A stretch of DNA of 64,000 bases, from positions 1 through 64,000 of the forward strand of contig QZKU01000143.1 in assembly GCA_003598085.1 (NCBI GenBank), read 5' to 3'. Made by a program: the position numbers and the translations under genes. Shown here piece after piece: positions 8,180-58,019 of this stretch (the first letter of the stretch is position 1; each line of letters starts with the position of its first letter). The notes below the pieces were generated by a model. It saw nothing but the letters and a program-made list of their open reading frames with translations. It was not told where the DNA came from and searched no databases. This DNA comes from Candidatus Abyssobacteria bacterium SURF_5 (GTDB taxonomy: Bacteria; Abyssobacteria; SURF-5).

Positions 8180-10171
8180 ATGCGAGTGGTTGGGATTGAT
8201 ACCGGTGGGACGTTTACCGATCTGGTGCTGGCGGAGGGCGGGACTCTTAAGACGAAGAAAGTCCCGTCGACTCCGCGCGATCCTGCCGAGGCCCTTCTGA
8301 CCGGACTGCGGTTACTATGCGAAGAGGACGGGGGAGCGGCTCTCTTCACGCTCACCCACGGCTCCACCGTTGCCACTAACTCCCTGTTGGAACGGAAGGG
8401 GGCGACTGTCGCTCTTATCACGACTGCCGGCTTCGAGGACGTTCTCCTCATCGGCAGGCAGCAGCGCCCGTCGCTTTATGATTTGAACGTCGAAAAACCC
8501 GCGCCTCTCATTCGGCGTGAGAACATTTTCGGAGTGCGCGAGCGCATTCTGCATGATGGAACAGTTGAAAGCCGGCCCGATGAAAGGGAGATTCAGGAAA
8601 TCGCACAGAGGATTATGGCGAATAGGTGCGATTCAATTGCCGTCTGTTTTCTTCACGCGTACCGGAATTTTGAAAACGAGGAGTTTGTAGAGCGGCGCCT
8701 GGAAAACCTGAAAATTCCCATTTGCTCATCGCACCGGGTGCTCCCCGAGTATCGGGAATACGAACGTATCAGCACAACGTCGGTCAATGCGTTTGTCGCT
8801 CCCAAAATGGATGTATACATCCGGCATATCGAAGAGAACATTTCAACCTCTTCGCGCCTGCGGATCATGCAGTCCAACGGCGGCGCGATTTCGGCCTCCC
8901 GCGCGCGTGCAGAGGCGGTTCAAACCATACTTTCCGGGCCCGCCGCCGGTGTGGTCGGCGCTTTCGAAGCAGCCCGAGCAGCGGGATTCGATAAGGTGAT
9001 CACTTTCGACATGGGCGGCACATCAACCGATGTAAGCTTATGTGATAAAAGGATTTCCACCCGGACAAGCTCCAATATCTCAGGAGTCCCGATAGCCACC
9101 CCCGTTGTCGATATCCATACCGTAGGCGCCGGAGGCGGCTCGATAGCGTGGTTGGATTCGGCCGGTTCGCTCAGGGTTGGTCCGAAAAGCGCGGGCGCCG
9201 AGCCCGGCCCCGTTTGCTATGGAGTCGGCTCCGAACTGACCGTTACCGATGCGAATCTCTTTTTGGGGAGAATGGCGGCGGAGCGTTTTCTCGGCGGCGA
9301 GATGAGTCTCGATCTTGACAGGGTTCAATATCATATGTTAAAATTTTCCAACGACTTAGGAATGTCCGCCGAACAGGCCGCCGAGGGTGTTCTCGCAGTG
9401 GCGAACGCGACAATGGAGCGGGCCATCCGCGTCATCTCGGTCGAGCGCGGACACGATCCTCGACATTTCACGCTGATTGCCTTTGGAGGAGCGGGGCCAA
9501 TGCACGCATGCTCCCTAGCCTGCGCCCTGGGTATTCCTCAAATTATTATTCCTCATAATGCGGGCGTTCTCTCGGCTCTCGGATTACTTATGGCCGATGT
9601 GAAGAAGGACCTCTCACAGACTGTCCTCATTCGTGCGGAACAAGTCGACATCCCGCGCCTCAATCAACTTTTTGCCCCTCTGGAAAAAGAAGCGCAAGAA
9701 ATTATGGCCGGGGAGGGCTTCGCGCCCAACCAGTTCAGGCTGGATGGATTTCTTGATATGCGCTACGCCGGCCAGGCCTACGAGGTGACCGTGCCGGTGG
9801 CCGAGGATTTTGTGGCGATCTTCCACCAGGAACATTTCCGCCTTTACGGGCACTCCGATGCCTCTCGCGCCGTTGAATTGGTGAACATTCGATTAACGGC
9901 CAGTGGAATCGTCGAGCCGCCGCCGTTCATTCGGGGGGAAGAGACCGACATCATCGCAGAGGCGGCTTTCTTGGGTGATCGTCAGGCTGTTTTCGCCTCT
10001 GGAGTTAGCGCCACGCCGGTGTATGACCGGGCAGAACTTCGGCCGGGGAATCAGTTGGCGGGGCCGGCCATTGTCGCCGAAGCCCACGCAACCACGGTCA
10101 TCACACCTGGTTTCACTGCAAGAATGGATGTTCTTGGGAATATCTTGATTAAACCCGCGGTGTCCGCTTGA
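8180..10171 (+). CDS. hyuA: Hydantoinase/oxoprolinase/ketone carboxylase family subunit A (HyuA), first copy
   Basis: A 663-residue HyuA-type ATP-dependent subunit of the ASKHA-like hydantoinase A/oxoprolinase family, which with HyuB hydrolyses lactam-like rings (N-methylhydantoin, oxoproline, caprolactam) or carboxylates ketones. Motifs: phosphate-binding VVGIDTGGTFTDLV (residues 3-16), LTHGSTVATNSLLERKGA (about 54-71), the central ATPase signature SGPAAGVVGA and ITFDMGGTSTDVSL, and a late GGAGPMHACSLA adenosine motif. It starts at a promoter-proximal ATG with no ribosome site. HyuB follows but is separated by an HD-domain gene, which is not the usual AB adjacency. Substrate is not predictable; a second, only distantly similar pair is at 53740-58019. 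Confidence 0.93.
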   Translation: MRVVGIDTGGTFTDLVLAEGGTLKTKKVPSTPRDPAEALLTGLRLLCEEDGGAALFTLTHGSTVATNSLLERKGATVALITTAGFEDVLLIGRQQRPSLYDLNVEKPAPLIRRENIFGVRERILHDGTVESRPDEREIQEIAQRIMANRCDSIAVCFLHAYRNFENEEFVERRLENLKIPICSSHRVLPEYREYERISTTSVNAFVAPKMDVYIRHIEENISTSSRLRIMQSNGGAISASRARAEAVQTILSGPAAGVVGAFEAARAAGFDKVITFDMGGTSTDVSLCDKRISTRTSSNISGVPIATPVVDIHTVGAGGGSIAWLDSAGSLRVGPKSAGAEPGPVCYGVGSELTVTDANLFLGRMAAERFLGGEMSLDLDRVQYHMLKFSNDLGMSAEQAAEGVLAVANATMERAIRVISVERGHDPRHFTLIAFGGAGPMHACSLACALGIPQIIIPHNAGVLSALGLLMADVKKDLSQTVLIRAEQVDIPRLNQLFAPLEKEAQEIMAGEGFAPNQFRLDGFLDMRYAGQAYEVTVPVAEDFVAIFHQEHFRLYGHSDASRAVELVNIRLTASGIVEPPPFIRGEETDIIAEAAFLGDRQAVFASGVSATPVYDRAELRPGNQLAGPAIVAEAHATTVITPGFTARMDVLGNILIKPAVSA

Positions 10172-10237
10172 GGTGCGGAGGCGGGCCGCTCAGCTACAAC
10201 TTTAAGAATTGAAAAGAATCGAAAGGATAATGCGCTC

Positions 10238-10783
10238 ATGACCAGGGAAGAGGCGCTCGCGCTCGTCAACGGAAAGGTTAGAACGAAAAACTTGCGCAAG
10301 CATATGTTTGCGACGGAGGCGTGCATGCGCGCCCTTGCGGGCCGGCTTGGCGGCGACCGGGAGCGATGGGCGATGGCGGGGCTTCTTCACGACCTGGACT
10401 ACGATGAGACGGTAAACGATTTCTCGCGCCACGGATATGCCACCTGCGAATATCTGCGGGGCACAGACGTGCCCGCCGATATTCTCGATGCCATCATGGC
10501 TCATACCGGCCACACTCCGGCTCGAACCCAGATGGATATGGTTCTCTATGCGGTCGATCCGCTGACCGGATTTCTCGTGGCGGCGGCGCTGATGCATCCT
10601 TCAAAAAAGATCGCGGATGTCGATGTCGCTTTTGCCATGAACCGATTCAAAGAGAAACGCTTTGCTGCCGGGGCAAATCGGGATCAGATGAAGAAGTGCG
10701 AAGAATTTGGCCTTCGGCTCGAAGAATTCATCCGGATTTGTCTTGAAGCTATGCAGAAGGTTTCGCAGGAGCTGGGCCTGTAG
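10238..10783 (+). CDS. HD-domain phosphohydrolase-like protein between hyuA and hyuB
   Basis: A 181-residue HDIG-like protein. The metal-binding set of the HD superfamily is visible: His22 (LRKHMFATEACM), His51-Asp52 (GLLHDLDYDE), His89 (AHTGH region) and Asp107 (YAVDPLTG). It is close to small stand-alone HD proteins annotated as hydrolases; none of the conserved accessory domains (GAF, PAS, EAL) are attached. AAAGGAT precedes the ATG at 10238. It sits 66 bases after hyuA and only 4 bases before hyuB, so all three are very probably one transcript. A role in removing a phosphate or pyrophosphate from a substrate, nucleotide or signal connected with the HyuAB reaction is inference from position only. 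Confidence 0.85.
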   Translation: MTREEALALVNGKVRTKNLRKHMFATEACMRALAGRLGGDRERWAMAGLLHDLDYDETVNDFSRHGYATCEYLRGTDVPADILDAIMAHTGHTPARTQMDMVLYAVDPLTGFLVAAALMHPSKKIADVDVAFAMNRFKEKRFAAGANRDQMKKCEEFGLRLEEFIRICLEAMQKVSQELGL

Positions 10784-10787
10784 AGGG

Positions 10788-12347
10788 ATGAACTTGTTCG
10801 ATCCGATAAAGCTCGAGATTTTCAAGAACCTCTTCAGCTCGGTTGCCGACGAAATGGGCGTTGTGCTGCAGAGAACAGGTTTCTCGCCGAACATAAAAGA
10901 GCGCCTGGATTTTTCGTGTGCGGTTTTTGATGGAGCCGGCGAGATGGTCGCTCAGGCCGCCCATATCCCTGTCCATCTCGGCTCGATGCCGCTCTCAGTG
11001 AAAAGCGCAATCGAGTCGCTGGAGATGGAACCGGGCGACGTGGTCATCTTGAACGACCCGTTCCGAGGCGGGACGCATTTACCCGATGTGACCATGGTCG
11101 CGCCGGTTTTCCTGGACCAAAACCGCCCTCAATTCTACGTGGCCAACCGTGCTCACCATGCCGATATCGGCGGGCTGATGCCGAGTTCGATGCCGCTCTC
11201 CACCTCAATCTATCAGGAGGGCTTGATCATTCCGCCCGTCAAGCTGGTGTCACGCGGGAAAATTCAGAAGGACCTGCTTTCGGTCATACTGGCCAACGTG
11301 AGGACGCCGGTTGAGCGGGAGGGCGATATATCGGCTCAGCTTGCGGCCTGCGAGACGGGCTCGCGCAGGCTGTTCGAACTGCACGCGCGTTACGGGCTGA
11401 CCGAGTTGCGGACAGCGGCCTCCGCATTGATGGATTATGCGGAAACCCTGATGCGACACACAATCGGGGGTATTCCGGACGGAGTCTATTCTTTCGAGGA
11501 TTTCCTGGATGACGACGGCCTTGGCGCCGAAAGAATTCCCATTCGAGTCGCCGTTACCATACAGCGAGATACGGCTTCGGTCGATTTCACCGGAAGCGCT
11601 CCTCAGGTCGCCGGCTGCGTGAACGCGGTATTCGCCATTACTGTCTCGTGCGTCTTTTACGTGTTCCGCTGTCTGACGGACGAAATGGTTCCGTCCAATG
11701 CCGGCTGCCTCAGACCGATTCGCGTCAGCGTTCCGGAACATTCCGTCGTAAACGCGGCGCCTCCCGCAGCCGTCGTTGGAGGCAATGTGGAAACGTCACA
11801 ACGTATCGTGGATGTCCTTCTCGGAGCGCTGTCGGCGGCGATGCCCGAAAAAATTCCCGCGGCAAGTTGCGGCAGCATGAATAACGTCTCCATCGGCGGC
11901 TACGACTGCATCCGCAATCGGATGTTCACATATTACGAGACGCTGGCAGGAGGCATGGGCGCGCGTCCGCAGAAAGACGGTCTGGATGCAGTCCATACAC
12001 ATATGACCAATACGATGAACACCCCGGTTGAAGTTATCGAAACCACCTACCCACTCAAGGTGGTGCAATATGCGATCAGGCCCGGATCGGGCGGACGCGG
12101 TAGGCGCAACGGCGGCAACGGCCTGGTCAGGGAATACGAACTTCTGTGCGCATCGGAGGTTTCGGTTCTGTCTGAGAGACGTCTGTTCGCTCCGTATGGA
12201 ATCGCAGGCGGCGAGGCCGGTCGAAAGGGCGAAAATCTGATTTTTAAAGACGGTCATTGGCAATCTCTTCCGCCCAAGATCAACATGCAATGCAGCGCGG
12301 GGTCCCGCCTGCGGATTATGACGCCTGGAGGAGGCGGGTATGGCTAG
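10788..12347 (+). CDS. hyuB: Hydantoinase B/oxoprolinase family subunit (HyuB), first copy
   Basis: A 519-residue HyuB-type subunit, partner of the HyuA at 8180. It shows DPIKLEIFKNLFSSVADEMG at the start, GDVVILNDPFRGGTHLPDVT (metal- and substrate-site region), ANRAHHADIGG with the conserved His pair, NAGCLRPIRVSVPEHSVVNA, and a glycine-rich C-terminal tail RPGSGGRGRRNGGNGLVREYE. ATG 10788 follows AGAGGG and overlaps nothing; a longer in-frame extension from 10707 lies inside the HD gene and is rejected. This copy stops at the normal family end, unlike the second copy, which has an extra domain. Its last 8 bases overlap the vWA-FHA gene start. Confidence 0.92.
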   Translation: MNLFDPIKLEIFKNLFSSVADEMGVVLQRTGFSPNIKERLDFSCAVFDGAGEMVAQAAHIPVHLGSMPLSVKSAIESLEMEPGDVVILNDPFRGGTHLPDVTMVAPVFLDQNRPQFYVANRAHHADIGGLMPSSMPLSTSIYQEGLIIPPVKLVSRGKIQKDLLSVILANVRTPVEREGDISAQLAACETGSRRLFELHARYGLTELRTAASALMDYAETLMRHTIGGIPDGVYSFEDFLDDDGLGAERIPIRVAVTIQRDTASVDFTGSAPQVAGCVNAVFAITVSCVFYVFRCLTDEMVPSNAGCLRPIRVSVPEHSVVNAAPPAAVVGGNVETSQRIVDVLLGALSAAMPEKIPAASCGSMNNVSIGGYDCIRNRMFTYYETLAGGMGARPQKDGLDAVHTHMTNTMNTPVEVIETTYPLKVVQYAIRPGSGGRGRRNGGNGLVREYELLCASEVSVLSERRLFAPYGIAGGEAGRKGENLIFKDGHWQSLPPKINMQCSAGSRLRIMTPGGGGYG

Positions 12348-52185: not shown

Positions 52186-52230
52186 CTGAGCCATTAGGAA
52201 GTCGCACTGTCTAGTTTGAGCGCTCCGCCG

Positions 52231-53700
52231 ATGAGAAAACAGCCGATACAGCCGCCGGGATTGAGAATAAGTCAGCTCGCCGCTCTGGCGGGTGTGCCGG
52301 TCCCTACCGTCAAGCACTACCTGCATGAGGGGCTCCTCCCGCGACCCATCAAAACGGGTCGCACCATGTCCTACTACGACGCCGCCTGCGTGGACAAAAT
52401 CAGGTTGATCAAGCGCCTGCAAAGCAAGCGATTCTTTCCGCTGAACGTGATCAAGCGGATAATTGACAATGGCGCCATCGCTGCCGGTGAACTGGCGCTG
52501 GGGGAAGCGCTCCTCGATATCCCCGCTGAGCCGGAGGACGTACAAACTGTTTCAAGAAAACGAGTCGCCGGACACACCCGTTACTCGCTGAAGAAGATCG
52601 ACCGGATGGAGTCGCTCGGTCTTCTCCGACCAGTTATCACCTCTCGAGGAAAAGAGTACGATGCGTCCGACTGCCGCGTTATTGCGCTCATGCGCCAGCG
52701 TGAGGAGGCTGGCTTCCCGTTCGACTATTCCCTGGAAATGATGTCGGTGTACCGCCGCCATATCCAGGAAATTGTGAAGGAGGATGCAAGGCTGTTCCTT
52801 AAGAGACTCTTGCCTTCTTCTTCTCCTGCCAGCGCCGCGCAGTACATAAGAGAAGGCGACAAGGCGCTCGGCGCCTTTATGCCGTTGATGAAGGCGAAGC
52901 TTGTGCGGGCGCATGCAGAAAAGGTCATTGAGACGGTGAATTCGGCGCCCGAGCACCTGAAGGAAATACTTCGCTTCCGCCGGGCGCAATCATTTTCTTC
53001 CACAGACTTGTCATTCAGCGAAATTCCGCGGGAAAATGTGAAAAGGACGCTGATTGCGGCACTCGGCAAGCGGCGCGATTTTCCCGCCGCCCCTCATTTC
53101 AGAACGCTCGGCCAGGCGGTGTTGTCGGCCGCCGCCGGTAATTTTCGGCTGACCCTGGCTCATCTGGAGGAACTGAAAGCCCCGCCTGAATTGTTTCCAC
53201 TTGTTGCCGCACTGAAAGGGTTGGCCTTGTATGGCAGTGTGCCTGAGACGCGGGGCGTTTTTTCAACCATCCAACCGATCCTCGATGCAGTCGCGGCATT
53301 TCGAGATTCCCGCATTCGGGTGGATCCTTATGAGGTCTGCCTCATCTCATCCTATATCCGGGGGGCGGTCCTTTCCGTGATCCCCGACGTCTTCGATACG
53401 CATTCGGAGGCGGCAATGGACCTGAAGGCGGTCGCTGAAGCGCACGAGGTCGGCGAAGAATCTGCGTGGAGAACGATTGCCGAAGAGCTTAAACTCAAGG
53501 CTCTGTTCCACCTTTCGCAAATGCTGATCTCAGACGAAGCCCTCGAGTCGGCTCGACACGTGCTCACTCTGTTAAAGGAGAAAGCGGGAGGAACCTTCTA
53601 CGGAAAATGGGCTTCAAAACAATTGGCGGCCTTGGCTGAAGAAGGCGATGCGTCTGATCCAGTCACACATTCACGTGCCGGACCGGAGCATAAACGGTAA
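52231..53700 (+). CDS. Long MerR-type transcription regulator with duplicated helix-turn-helix region
   Basis: A 489-residue protein, far longer than usual MerR members (about 120-300). Residues about 8-80 are a MerR DNA-binding head (ISQLAALAGVPVPTVKHYLHEGLLP, YYDAACVDKIRLIKRLQ). A second MerR-like winged segment follows at about 105-170 (GHTRYSLKKIDRMESLGLLRP, YDASDCRVIALMRQREEAGF). The remaining 300 residues are helical, ending in repeat-like stretches (FRLTLAHLEELKAPPELFPLV), and likely sense a ligand. ATG 52231 is used; TTG 52216 is in frame. Neither has a ribosome site. It lies 39 bases before the second hyuA gene, so it probably controls that operon and itself. Confidence 0.85.
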   Translation: MRKQPIQPPGLRISQLAALAGVPVPTVKHYLHEGLLPRPIKTGRTMSYYDAACVDKIRLIKRLQSKRFFPLNVIKRIIDNGAIAAGELALGEALLDIPAEPEDVQTVSRKRVAGHTRYSLKKIDRMESLGLLRPVITSRGKEYDASDCRVIALMRQREEAGFPFDYSLEMMSVYRRHIQEIVKEDARLFLKRLLPSSSPASAAQYIREGDKALGAFMPLMKAKLVRAHAEKVIETVNSAPEHLKEILRFRRAQSFSSTDLSFSEIPRENVKRTLIAALGKRRDFPAAPHFRTLGQAVLSAAAGNFRLTLAHLEELKAPPELFPLVAALKGLALYGSVPETRGVFSTIQPILDAVAAFRDSRIRVDPYEVCLISSYIRGAVLSVIPDVFDTHSEAAMDLKAVAEAHEVGEESAWRTIAEELKLKALFHLSQMLISDEALESARHVLTLLKEKAGGTFYGKWASKQLAALAEEGDASDPVTHSRAGPEHKR

Positions 53701-53739: not shown

Positions 53740-55827
53740 GTGGGATATAAAATAGGAATCGATGTTGGCGGCACCTTTACCGATCTGGTCTACACGGACC
53801 TGACGGCTTCAATCGGGGTGGTCAAAACACTGACTACTCCTGAAAATCAGGCGTTGGGGGTGATGGCCGGTATTAAAAAAATCGCCGTACGCGAAGGGAT
53901 GACGCCCGCGGAGCTTCTGGCGCAAACGGAACTGCTCATCCATGGGACGACCGTCGCGACCAACACCATGCTCGAATTCGATGGCGCGTTAACCGGTCTC
54001 ATTACAACCGACGGTTTCCGGGATGACATCGAAATCAGGCGCGGCTACAAGGAACGCATCTTCAACCCGCGGCATGAAGCGCCGGTGCCCATCGCGCGCC
54101 GCCGGCACCGCCTCACGGTGGCTGAACGAGTGGACCGTGAGGGGAAAGTTCTGATCGCGCTCAACGAGGATGAGGCCGTCGAGCGGGTTCGAAAGCTGAA
54201 GAACGCCGGCGTCGAGTCAATCGGAGTATGCCTCTTCTTCGGGTTCCTGAATCCGGCTCACGAGAAGAAAATCGCTGAGATCATTCGGCGCGAGCACCCG
54301 GCTGCTTTCGTCTCGCTCTCCCACGAGGTGCTCCCGCAGATACGCGAGTTCGAGCGTGTCAGCACCACGCTGGTCAACGCCTACACTGGCCCAAAACTCA
54401 AACATTATCTCGAACGTCTCGAAACCGAATTGAAAAGAAACGGCCTCGAGAGCGAATTCTTCGTGATGCTCTCAAACGGCGGAATCATGAACGCCGCCTA
54501 CGCCGGAAACTTCGCCGTCTACAGCCTGCTCTCCGGCCCGGCCGGCGGGGTGGTCGCCTGCGCCCAACTCATTGGAACCCTTTGCAACGAGCCGAATCTG
54601 ATCACCGTCGACATGGGCGGCACCAGCTATGATGTCTCGCTCATTCGCGGCGGAAAGCCGGCAGTCACTACTGAGTATTGGGTCAGCCGCTACCGGGTGG
54701 CGGCGCCCATGCTGGATATCCATACCATCGGCGCGGGCGGCGGCAGCATTGCCTGGGTCGACGCGGGCGGCGCTCTGCAGGTAGGTCCCAGAAGCGCGGG
54801 CGCGCTGCCGGGGCCGGCATGCTACGGGAGGGGCGGCGCGGAGCCGGCGGTAACCGACGCGAACCTTCTGCTGGGATACCTCGATCCGGATAATTTTCTC
54901 GGCGGCGAAATGAAACTGGATCGCAATGCGGCCGAACGCGCCATCGAGGAAAAGGTCGCGCGCCCGCTCGGACTCGACGTCCTCCATGCGGCCCACGGGA
55001 TATTTCGCATCGTCAACAACAATATGACCAACGGCATTCGCGTCGTATCCGTCCGCAAGGGATATGATCCGCGCGACTTCACCCTCGTCGCGTTCGGAGG
55101 AAACGGGGCTCTTCACGCCGGTGTGCAGGCAAAAGAACTGGGCATCGGGAAAGTCATTGTCCCTCGCATTGCGACCGCATTCTCCGCGCGCGGTCTCCTC
55201 GCCTCGAACATCGTTGTGAACAAGATGCGAACCTATATCGGCCGCTCGGATGCCCACGAACTCCCCCAGATCAATGCGCTTATCCATTCGATGAAAGAGG
55301 GGGCGGAACAGGATTTGCCCGCTGCCGTGAGAAAGCGCGCCGGTTTGGTGGAGACCGTAAAGTGGAACTATCAGATTGACATGCATTATAAGGGAGAGAC
55401 ACACGAGATCACCGTCCCGCTTGGGGCGGAGGATGGGGCCGTCACCGACCAAACTCTGGGCGCGGCGGTGGAATCATTTCATGCCGCCCATGAGATGCTC
55501 CATACTTTTTCCAATCCGGGCGACCCGGTCTTCTTCATGAATCTGCGGGTGGAAATGATTATCGAGACCGAAAAACCGCCTGTTCAACGGCTTGCCTTTC
55601 AGGGAGAGGACCCTTCTGCGGCCCTGCGATCAACGCGAAATGTCTTTTTTAATGAGCAGGGCGGCTTCATCCAGACCCCGATATACGACGGCGCGCGTGT
55701 CCGATGCGGAAATGTCTTTGTCGGCCCTTGCATCATCGAGGAGCCCGCGACAACCATAGTCGTTTACCCGAAGCAGAGGGCGCGCCTGACAGAGTACGAC
55801 AGTTATGAGATGGTGATAGCAGGATAA
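53740..55827 (+). CDS. Hydantoinase/oxoprolinase/ketone carboxylase family subunit A (HyuA), second copy
   Basis: A 695-residue HyuA-type subunit. Phosphate motifs IGIDVGGTFTDLV (residues about 4-16), LIHGTTVATNTMLEFDGA, LLSGPAGGVVACAQL and ITVDMGGTSYDVSL are all present, with the late GGNGALHAGVQA adenosine motif. Start GTG 53740 follows AAAAGGAG. It is close in layout to the acetone/acetophenone carboxylase and N-methylhydantoinase A lineages, but the substrate is not readable. It is separated from the MerR-type regulator by 39 bases and from its HyuB partner by 26 bases, so MerR-hyuA-hyuB form one unit. The window's other HyuA (8180) is clearly a different subtype. Confidence 0.93.
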   Translation: MGYKIGIDVGGTFTDLVYTDLTASIGVVKTLTTPENQALGVMAGIKKIAVREGMTPAELLAQTELLIHGTTVATNTMLEFDGALTGLITTDGFRDDIEIRRGYKERIFNPRHEAPVPIARRRHRLTVAERVDREGKVLIALNEDEAVERVRKLKNAGVESIGVCLFFGFLNPAHEKKIAEIIRREHPAAFVSLSHEVLPQIREFERVSTTLVNAYTGPKLKHYLERLETELKRNGLESEFFVMLSNGGIMNAAYAGNFAVYSLLSGPAGGVVACAQLIGTLCNEPNLITVDMGGTSYDVSLIRGGKPAVTTEYWVSRYRVAAPMLDIHTIGAGGGSIAWVDAGGALQVGPRSAGALPGPACYGRGGAEPAVTDANLLLGYLDPDNFLGGEMKLDRNAAERAIEEKVARPLGLDVLHAAHGIFRIVNNNMTNGIRVVSVRKGYDPRDFTLVAFGGNGALHAGVQAKELGIGKVIVPRIATAFSARGLLASNIVVNKMRTYIGRSDAHELPQINALIHSMKEGAEQDLPAAVRKRAGLVETVKWNYQIDMHYKGETHEITVPLGAEDGAVTDQTLGAAVESFHAAHEMLHTFSNPGDPVFFMNLRVEMIIETEKPPVQRLAFQGEDPSAALRSTRNVFFNEQGGFIQTPIYDGARVRCGNVFVGPCIIEEPATTIVVYPKQRARLTEYDSYEMVIAG

Positions 55828-55853: not shown

Positions 55854-58019
55854 ATGAATACTTTGGACCCGATAACGACCGAGGTGATCCGCTGCGGCCT
55901 CGAAACCATAGCCAACGAAATGGGCGACACCATGATTCGAACGGCAACCACTCCGACTTTCAGCGAGTCCCATGATTTCTCCACCGCCATCTTCGACGGC
56001 GCCGCCAGAATCATCGCGCTCGCCGACGCTTTGCCCATTCATATGGGCGCATCCAAATTCTCCGTAATGGCGGCTCTTGAAGCTTTTCAGGACGATCTCC
56101 ATACCGGCGACCTCATTGTTGTCAACGATCCGTATCACGGCGGTTCTCATCTTCCTGATTGGACCATGATGACCCCGATATTCTTCGAAGGACGCCTCGT
56201 TTTCTTCCCGGTGACACGCGCCCATCAGGGCGATACCGGCGGCGCTGTTCCCGGCGGCTACAATCCCGGCGCGGTCGATATCTGGCAGGAGGGCCTGCGT
56301 CTGCCCCCGATAAAGATTTACGAACGCGGCCGCCCCAGAAACGATATCATCAAACTGCTCCAGATCAACAACCGCGAGCCGACGTTCCTCGGCGATTTGA
56401 AGGCGATGATCGGCTCGGTGAGAGTGGCCGAGCGGCGCCTCCTGGAAATGCTGAAAAAATACGGCGTGCAGGTGGTCACCGATTGCCTGGACGAGATCAT
56501 CCGCTATACCGAACGCAGGTTCAGGGCTGAGATCGAGGAGTGGCCCGACGGTATCTACACCGGTGAGGCTTACCTCGAGCACGACTGCCAGGGAACACGC
56601 GACGTAACCGTTCGCGCCACAGTTACGGTTGCCGGCGACTCCCTGAAAATCGATTTCGCCGGCAGCGATCCCCAGACCCGCGGTTTCATCAACAGCTCCG
56701 TCCCCAACTCCTATTCATATATCTTCCTGACGCTGTCCAGCATGATCGACGACTCCATCCCGCGTAACGAGGGGTTGCTTCTTCCCGTTAAGATACTCCT
56801 TCCGGAAGGGACCGTAGTCAATCCGCGCCCGCCCGCTCCATGCACGGCCTGCACCCTGCACGCCGGCGGCGAGATAGGGGAGGCGGTCGCTGTCGCGCTG
56901 GCAACCGCGATACCGGAAAAAGCGTATCCTCAAAATATCAAGCTGGGAATGCCCCTCGTTACCTACGGTGCGAACCCCTATTCCGGCGAGTTTTACGTCG
57001 ATCAGAATGTCACCATGGCGGCAGGCTGGTGCAACGCCGCCTGCGGAACCGACGGCTGGGGCGCAATGTCCCCCTTCTTCGGCGCAATGACGATGGCCAC
57101 CGGTGAATTGCACGACATGTACTATCCTGTATTGACGGTGGCGCGGCAGTATCTGACCGACTCCGGCGGGGCCGGCACATGGCGGGGCGGCCTCGGAACC
57201 CTGCTGAGGATGAAGGCGCTGGCGCCCATGTTCATGCATACGTACGTCATCGGCACCAGGTATCCTATGCGCGGATTCAACGGCGGTCTGGATGGCTCGC
57301 CGAACAGCATCATCTTGCGCGAAGGGAGCCCTGCGGAGATCGAAATCGAGGCAACGGCTTTCGAAGAACCTCTCTCGGCCGGACACATGGTTACCGCGAA
57401 ACTCGGCGGCGGCGGCGGGTGGGGCGACCCCCTCACACGCCCTCCACAGGCGGTCCTCGATGACGTCCTCGATGAATATGTATCGCTCGAAGCCGCCCGG
57501 CGCGATTATGGCGTCGCGATCGATGAGCGCCAGATGCGGATCGACCTCGAAGAAACCGGGCGACTTCGCCAACAATTGGCAAAAGAACGCGCCGAAAAAC
57601 AGCACGAAAAAATGGTTGCCGTACGGTACCTCTCCCCTGAGTGGCAGCACATGTGCCAGGCGGCCGTTAACGAGGACCCGGATTTCATCAACCTGGCTGC
57701 CGGCATGACAATCGAGCTCAACAACATCATTGAAAACTGCCCGGACGGCAGCACTCGCTTCCTCTATTGGAAATTCGAAAAAGGGAAACTCGTCGAGACG
57801 CGGGTGGGGCTGGCGGAAGAATTCAGGCAAACCTCTCTCTTCACAACGATCGCATCCTATGACACTTTCATGAGGATCAATACTGCCAAAATAAGTGTCG
57901 AAGCGGCAGTCGTCGAGGGATTGGTTCGATTTGAAGGCGACCTTGCCGAAATGATGCGCTTCGTGGAGCCGCTCAATAGATTCACAGAGGTGCGAAGGAG
58001 GATTCCAACACAATATTGA
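55854..58019 (+). CDS. HyuB-type subunit fused to a C-terminal SCP2-like lipid-binding domain
   Basis: A 721-residue protein. Residues 1 to about 560 are a standard HyuB: LDPITTEVIRCGLETIANEMG, IVVNDPYHGGSHLPDWTMMTP, RAHQGDTGG, and the Gly-rich MVTAKLGGGGGWGDPL. A charged helix (about 545-586) links to a terminal domain (587-721) that opens VRYLSPEWQHMCQAAVNEDPDFINLA and ends TFMRINTAKISVEAAVVEGLVRFEGDLAEMMRFVEPL, the layout of sterol-carrier-protein-2 domains (hydrophobic-ligand-binding). CAGGAGAA precedes ATG 55854. Frame is continuous, so this is one gene, not a frameshift. The fusion implies a hydrophobic substrate or intermediate. It converges with the hybrid kinase, 3 bases away. Confidence 0.85.
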   Translation: MNTLDPITTEVIRCGLETIANEMGDTMIRTATTPTFSESHDFSTAIFDGAARIIALADALPIHMGASKFSVMAALEAFQDDLHTGDLIVVNDPYHGGSHLPDWTMMTPIFFEGRLVFFPVTRAHQGDTGGAVPGGYNPGAVDIWQEGLRLPPIKIYERGRPRNDIIKLLQINNREPTFLGDLKAMIGSVRVAERRLLEMLKKYGVQVVTDCLDEIIRYTERRFRAEIEEWPDGIYTGEAYLEHDCQGTRDVTVRATVTVAGDSLKIDFAGSDPQTRGFINSSVPNSYSYIFLTLSSMIDDSIPRNEGLLLPVKILLPEGTVVNPRPPAPCTACTLHAGGEIGEAVAVALATAIPEKAYPQNIKLGMPLVTYGANPYSGEFYVDQNVTMAAGWCNAACGTDGWGAMSPFFGAMTMATGELHDMYYPVLTVARQYLTDSGGAGTWRGGLGTLLRMKALAPMFMHTYVIGTRYPMRGFNGGLDGSPNSIILREGSPAEIEIEATAFEEPLSAGHMVTAKLGGGGGWGDPLTRPPQAVLDDVLDEYVSLEAARRDYGVAIDERQMRIDLEETGRLRQQLAKERAEKQHEKMVAVRYLSPEWQHMCQAAVNEDPDFINLAAGMTIELNNIIENCPDGSTRFLYWKFEKGKLVETRVGLAEEFRQTSLFTTIASYDTFMRINTAKISVEAAVVEGLVRFEGDLAEMMRFVEPLNRFTEVRRRIPTQY

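Follow-up and report, generated by a model that had tools for sequence, protein, structure and literature searches.

The 64,000-nucleotide stretch of DNA analyzed here, referred to as the window, comes from the deep-subsurface bacterium Candidatus Abyssobacteria SURF_5 and encodes a HyuB protein with an attached SCP2 domain. As the analysis confirms, the window's second HyuB consists of an ordinary HyuB core (to about residue 560), a variable helical linker, and a C-terminal SCP2 fold (about residues 590-721). It belongs to a conserved three-gene unit with the order MerR-HyuA-HyuB(SCP2), which would encode an ATP- and metal-dependent enzyme of the caprolactamase/N-methylhydantoinase group whose HyuB subunit possesses its own lipid-carrier domain; this reading is held with middling confidence. 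By analogy with other SCP2 folds, the role of the domain is probably to concentrate a hydrophobic molecule, either the substrate or the product. The HyuB-SCP2 architecture appears to be new, although as a combination of known parts; no paper was found in which hydantoinase is mentioned together with SCP2 or "sterol carrier" in a search that covered subscription journals thinly.

The fusion protein is encoded by a single open frame of 721 codons (55854-58019, plus strand, as are all features of the three-gene unit given below), as had been claimed in the original prediction, and the proteins of the two orthologous loci L010 (725 amino acids) and L011 (752 amino acids) are of like architecture. 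The first HyuB of the window (10707-12347) is part of a HyuA-HyuB pair of the ordinary, tail-less kind (8180-12347); it comprises 546 amino acids, ends with the core, has no C-terminal extension, and is 31% identical to the second HyuB. The latter is consequently longer by 175 amino acids and not by the predicted "about 200". Its core, residues 1-526 (55854-57431), is matched by the full length of the Pfam family Hydantoinase_B (PF02538; profile positions 1-519 of 519, residues 5-526, E 1.7e-151). A CapB-like segment follows at residues 527-560 (57432-57533), which aligns with 6yra_B through residue 559; the structure alignment extends to about residue 560 and the match to the curated CapB model to residue 573. 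The linker, residues 561-589 (57534-57620), is modeled as one helix and is poorly conserved, with 30-44% identity among the orthologues over residues 563-589 and about 30 additional residues in L011. The SCP2 domain itself occupies residues 590-721 (57621-58016). A start at residue 587 (57612) had been proposed for it; this boundary falls on Met587, which is unconserved, and the domain begins near residue 590. Since the orthologues lack Met587, there is no conserved internal start, and a separate tail gene starting at this position is ruled out.

Judged from models and profile comparisons, the assignment of the tail to the SCP2 fold is firm despite the weak, sub-threshold match of the window tail alone to Pfam SCP2 (PF02036; 13.7 bits, E 0.083), because the Pfam scores of the orthologues, the predicted structure, the Foldseek search, and a sequence profile all lead to it. 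With the Pfam gathering cut-off at 21.3 bits, the HMM comparison gave a divided answer: the L011 tail (22.5 bits) lies above it, while the L010 tail (19.9 bits, just under) and the window tail fall below. An AlphaFold2 model of the tail, computed from three sequences, predicts the SCP2 fold with confidence (pLDDT 83, pTM 0.72), and all 44 of the 44 Foldseek matches of this model in the PDB at E < 0.001 are SCP2 folds, namely standalone carriers, the SCP2 domain of MFE-2, UbiJ, and C-terminal domains of alkylsulfatases, the best being 2cx7 (TM 0.86). At the sequence level, a profile combining the tails with their standalone relatives (A5) matches 1wfr in the PDB (E 2.5e-20) and also reaches animal SCP2 at about 1e-8 (1c44, E 2e-8); a single-sequence search of the tail against solved SCP2 proteins gave no match. 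The earlier identification of the tail as an SCP2 domain is thus upheld by the model, the fold matches, the orthologue scores, and the profile; a disordered or unrelated tail is ruled out by the confident model and the exclusively SCP2-type fold matches.

Within Candidatus Abyssubacteria, the fusion is present in all three genomes sampled, which represent three genera. Besides SURF_5, it is carried by Candidatus Abyssobacteria SURF_17 and by a MAG from groundwater that has been filed under Poribacteria. An assembly join between two genes is rejected because the identical fusion is found in three separate MAGs. In each of them, MerR, HyuA, and HyuB(SCP2) follow each other in this order on one strand, so that the fusion is conserved together with its regulator across the three genera. 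The orthologous fusion proteins share 78 and 77% identity with that of the window, compared with about 50% for MerR and about 75% for HyuA. The SCP2 part retains 66-76% protein identity between orthologues, the linker 30-44%. For the SCP2 part, dN amounts to 0.14-0.25 in pairwise comparison, whereas synonymous sites are saturated or nearly so; these values show purifying selection on it in each of the three orthologue pairs. Overall, the sequences behave like a pair of conserved domains that are joined by a free tether.

Outside this family, the architecture was not encountered. In a wider survey of 386 genomes, mostly of other families, which were searched with the tail profile and with the whole protein, no HyuB-SCP2 fusion was found beyond the family, among these genomes being 81 that contain HyuB. 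There, the matches of the tail profile were all standalone proteins, 136 to 155 amino acids long, and the whole-protein search yielded no match extending beyond residue 621. The fusion was also not found on plasmids, and a search through the phylum of genome G139, which was run without a positive control, gave no match. Recurrence together with a MerR-type regulator in other genomes had been named beforehand as supporting evidence; it does occur, but within one family of one phylum and in no other sampled lineage.

In the HyuB loci inspected from outside the family, the C-terminus carries a short extension, a dipeptidase, or an unrelated domain some 110 amino acids in length, and in no case SCP2. 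An extension of about 320 amino acids is present in L064 (3038-5620), L065 (3899-6505), and L066 (636-3185); in L064 it is recognized as a membrane dipeptidase domain of the M19 type (E 7.6e-80), and similar starts are seen in L065 and L066, whose extensions begin nearly identically. A different addition of about 110 amino acids is found in L051 (3830-6040), L055 (1873-3930), and L056 (1581-4016); in L051 it shows weak resemblance to molybdopterin-binding and CDC48_N domains, and the additions of L055 and L056 are similar. From these unrelated additions it follows that the HyuB C-terminus tolerates varied fusions, and this, together with the long and poorly conserved linker, which fits loose tethering, lends some weight to the view that the SCP2 domain takes no part in handling the substrate and serves instead in protein-protein contacts or oligomerization, or else senses lipids or acyl-CoA for regulation. 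Set against this are the strong conservation of the SCP2 part and the hydrophobic nature of the ligands known for SCP2 folds; such a role is considered unlikely, albeit with an appreciable residual chance.

Standalone relatives of the tail offer a second view of the domain. Proteins with the tail type of SCP2 occur in 143 of 397 genomes of one other phylum, and in 20 of the 60 loci read there (L095-L154) a zinc or iron alcohol dehydrogenase is encoded directly downstream on the same strand, the dehydrogenase groups being named by Pfam from one member per group. In these 60 loci, tail-type SCP2 and alcohol dehydrogenase constitute a recurring gene pair. Neither HyuA nor HyuB was found near the SCP2 gene in any of the 60. 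Elsewhere, standalone relatives adjoin genes for iron-dependent alcohol dehydrogenase, acyl-CoA dehydrogenase, or SDR proteins; the neighbors thus belong to the catabolism of alcohols and acyl compounds. SCP2 genes adjoining HyuAB in other genomes were also looked for, and this line was discarded. The sole case, matched by eye for position, is contig C143 of genome G119 (L080, 5376-11702), where SCP2, HyuA, and HyuB are consecutive on one strand and an AtuA-family gene is divergent; its SCP2 is of a different type, its HyuB shares just 29% identity with that of the window, and this single adjacency is, by rough estimate, no more than chance allows and is not taken as evidence.

The three-gene unit is opened by a MerR-type regulator of 494 amino acids (52216-53700; Pfam MerR_1, E 3.2e-21), orthologues of which are located upstream of HyuA in L010 and L011. 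The protein is unusually long; Pfam recognizes N-terminal helix-turn-helix regions only and assigns no family to the remainder. HyuA, the ATP-binding subunit (695 amino acids; 53740-55827; Pfam Hydantoinase_A, PF01968, E 5.6e-96), has 6yra_A as its closest structure (E 3.1e-149), and 6yra is the best PDB match for HyuB as well. According to a motif scan based on the motifs described for CapA (PMC8453981), HyuA contains the phosphate-1 motif DVGGT at residues 8-12 (53761-53775), the phosphate-2 motif DMGGT at residues 291-295 (54610-54624), and the adenosine motif GALPGP (GxxPGP) at residues 354-359 (54799-54816), so that both DxGGT motifs and GxxPGP are intact. In HyuB, the Asp-His-Asp-His metal site is complete; Asp41 (55974-55976), His99 and Asp102 within HLPD (56148-56159), and His124 (56223-56225) agree in residue and number with the metal ligands of CapB. 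In caprolactamase, mutation of the metal ligands abolishes conversion of caprolactam (PMC8453981).

Among the curated models, those of caprolactamase score best for both subunits (674.7 bits for HyuA and 412.7 bits for HyuB), those of acetophenone carboxylase reaching 389 and 143 bits, respectively. Either subunit falls far below the caprolactamase equivalog cut-offs (NF050156/NF050157, 1000 bits), and the substrate need therefore not be caprolactam. The acetone carboxylase gamma subunit (PF08882) is absent from the SURF_5 genome and from genome G001. With caprolactamase motifs and metal ligands kept, caprolactamase models scoring best, and the gamma subunit missing, ATP-dependent amide hydrolysis by a caprolactamase-type amidohydrolase is predicted from sequence as the likeliest chemistry. 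Asp302 of CapA was tried as a hydrolase marker and fails to discriminate in the alignments; the Asp following DMGGT is common to HyuA and the aligned acetone/acetophenone carboxylase subunits, and no residue separating hydrolases from carboxylases was found in these alignments.

The genome of SURF_5 encodes four full-length molybdoenzymes resembling the alpha subunit of ethylbenzene dehydrogenase (C41:25516-28395, C41:29981-32860, C113:35256-38141, and C4:36236-39115), two of which are near each other on one contig. They score 885 to 915 bits against TIGR03479, and the one product tested (C41:25516-28395) has 2ivf_A as its best PDB match (E 7.2e-235). Anaerobic alkane hydroxylase matches, AhyA, have been reported for Abyssubacteria in a published survey, the CANT-HYD paper (PMC8767102). 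These enzymes, and the homology of HyuAB to ketone carboxylases, would be compatible with an ATP-dependent carboxylase acting on a long-chain or aromatic ketone after an ethylbenzene dehydrogenase-like or alkane C2-hydroxylase step, with the SCP2 domain holding the ketone. That scheme is nevertheless regarded as improbable; the gamma subunit is missing from operon and genome, the HyuAB scores favor hydrolases, the operon and the four dehydrogenase genes are on different contigs, and SURF_17 has a separate acetone carboxylase-like cluster (G002:C121; L086, 1-4676), which includes a partial HyuA-like protein, a HyuB-like protein of 781 amino acids, and a gamma subunit. A hydrocarbon-related substrate is possible from the genome setting, which does not by itself tie such a substrate to this operon. 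Finally, a lineage-specific leftover fusion of little functional effect would agree with the restriction to one family of one phylum, but it is very improbable, since each of the three orthologue pairs shows purifying selection over the SCP2 part and three genera have retained the fusion.

Returning to the caprolactamase-type enzyme with a tethered lipid carrier, catalysis would start with HyuA (ASKHA fold) activating a carbonyl, most likely that of a cyclic amide, at the expense of ATP. The activated intermediate would then be handed over to HyuB and hydrolyzed at its metal site (Asp-His-Asp-His). The SCP2 domain, tethered by the flexible helix, would either capture a poorly soluble substrate or keep an amphipathic product near the enzyme. 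We infer, in this scheme, a hydrolytic and non-carboxylating chemistry, a hydrophobic ligand, and a delivery role of SCP2. A hydrophobic ligand is proposed because of the usual role of SCP2 folds, whose ligands are usually hydrophobic, and because of the neighbors of the standalone relatives; among the fold matches of the tail are the liganded SCP2 structures 1ikt and 1pz4. The full-length model of the fusion, also computed from three sequences, is too poor over the core (pLDDT 39) for placing the SCP2 domain, or the opening of its pocket, relative to the metal site.

To our knowledge, the substrates established for HyuAB enzymes are small polar lactams, hydantoins, and small ketones. By analogy, the fused SCP2 domain suggests an oily substrate or product, and a built-in domain of this kind predicts a different substrate class for HyuAB. 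There is a rather slim prospect that the system would be the first ATP-dependent HyuAB whose substrates are hydrophobic; it could then be, for instance, a carboxylase of long-chain or aromatic ketones or a lactamase for lipid-like compounds, with a part in the anaerobic degradation of hydrocarbons by Candidatus Abyssubacteria. The fusion indicates a step of catabolism that has yet to be charted, in a subsurface lineage without cultured members, and the SCP2 domain, being expressible alone, could serve as bait for fishing out ligands.

Among known systems, the CapAB caprolactamase of Pseudomonas jessenii (6YRA) is likewise a two-subunit, ATP-dependent HyuAB enzyme with the same ATP motifs in its alpha subunit; in CapB, Asp41, His99, Asp102, and His124 are numbered alike and the core is alignable over residues 1-559, but CapB comprises 581 amino acids without SCP2, and the window proteins remain under the CapA/CapB equivalog cut-offs. 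N-Methylhydantoinase (7HK5 and related entries) is homologous to HyuA and HyuB along the core, but combines alpha and beta parts in a single chain and is devoid of SCP2. The acetophenone and acetone carboxylases (5L9W, 5M45, 5SVB) share homologous ATP and metal subunits, yet they own further subunits and lack SCP2, whereas the SURF_5 genome lacks the gamma subunit. For the tail, the TT1886-type standalone SCP2 proteins (1WFR, 2CX7) are closest, 2cx7 by fold and 1wfr by profile sequence; unlike the tail, they are single-domain proteins not fused to HyuB. An SCP2 fold that follows a catalytic domain at the C-terminus is likewise found in peroxisomal MFE-2, SCPx, the secondary alkylsulfatase Pisa1, and SdsA1, and the fold search with the tail returned SCP2 domains of this group; the catalytic domains of these enzymes are unrelated to HyuB. 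In MFE-2, SCPx, and the alkylsulfatases, the SCP2 domain is thought to capture ligands or hold them near the enzyme, and ATP-dependent amidohydrolases would herewith join the list of enzymes that have recruited an SCP2 module.
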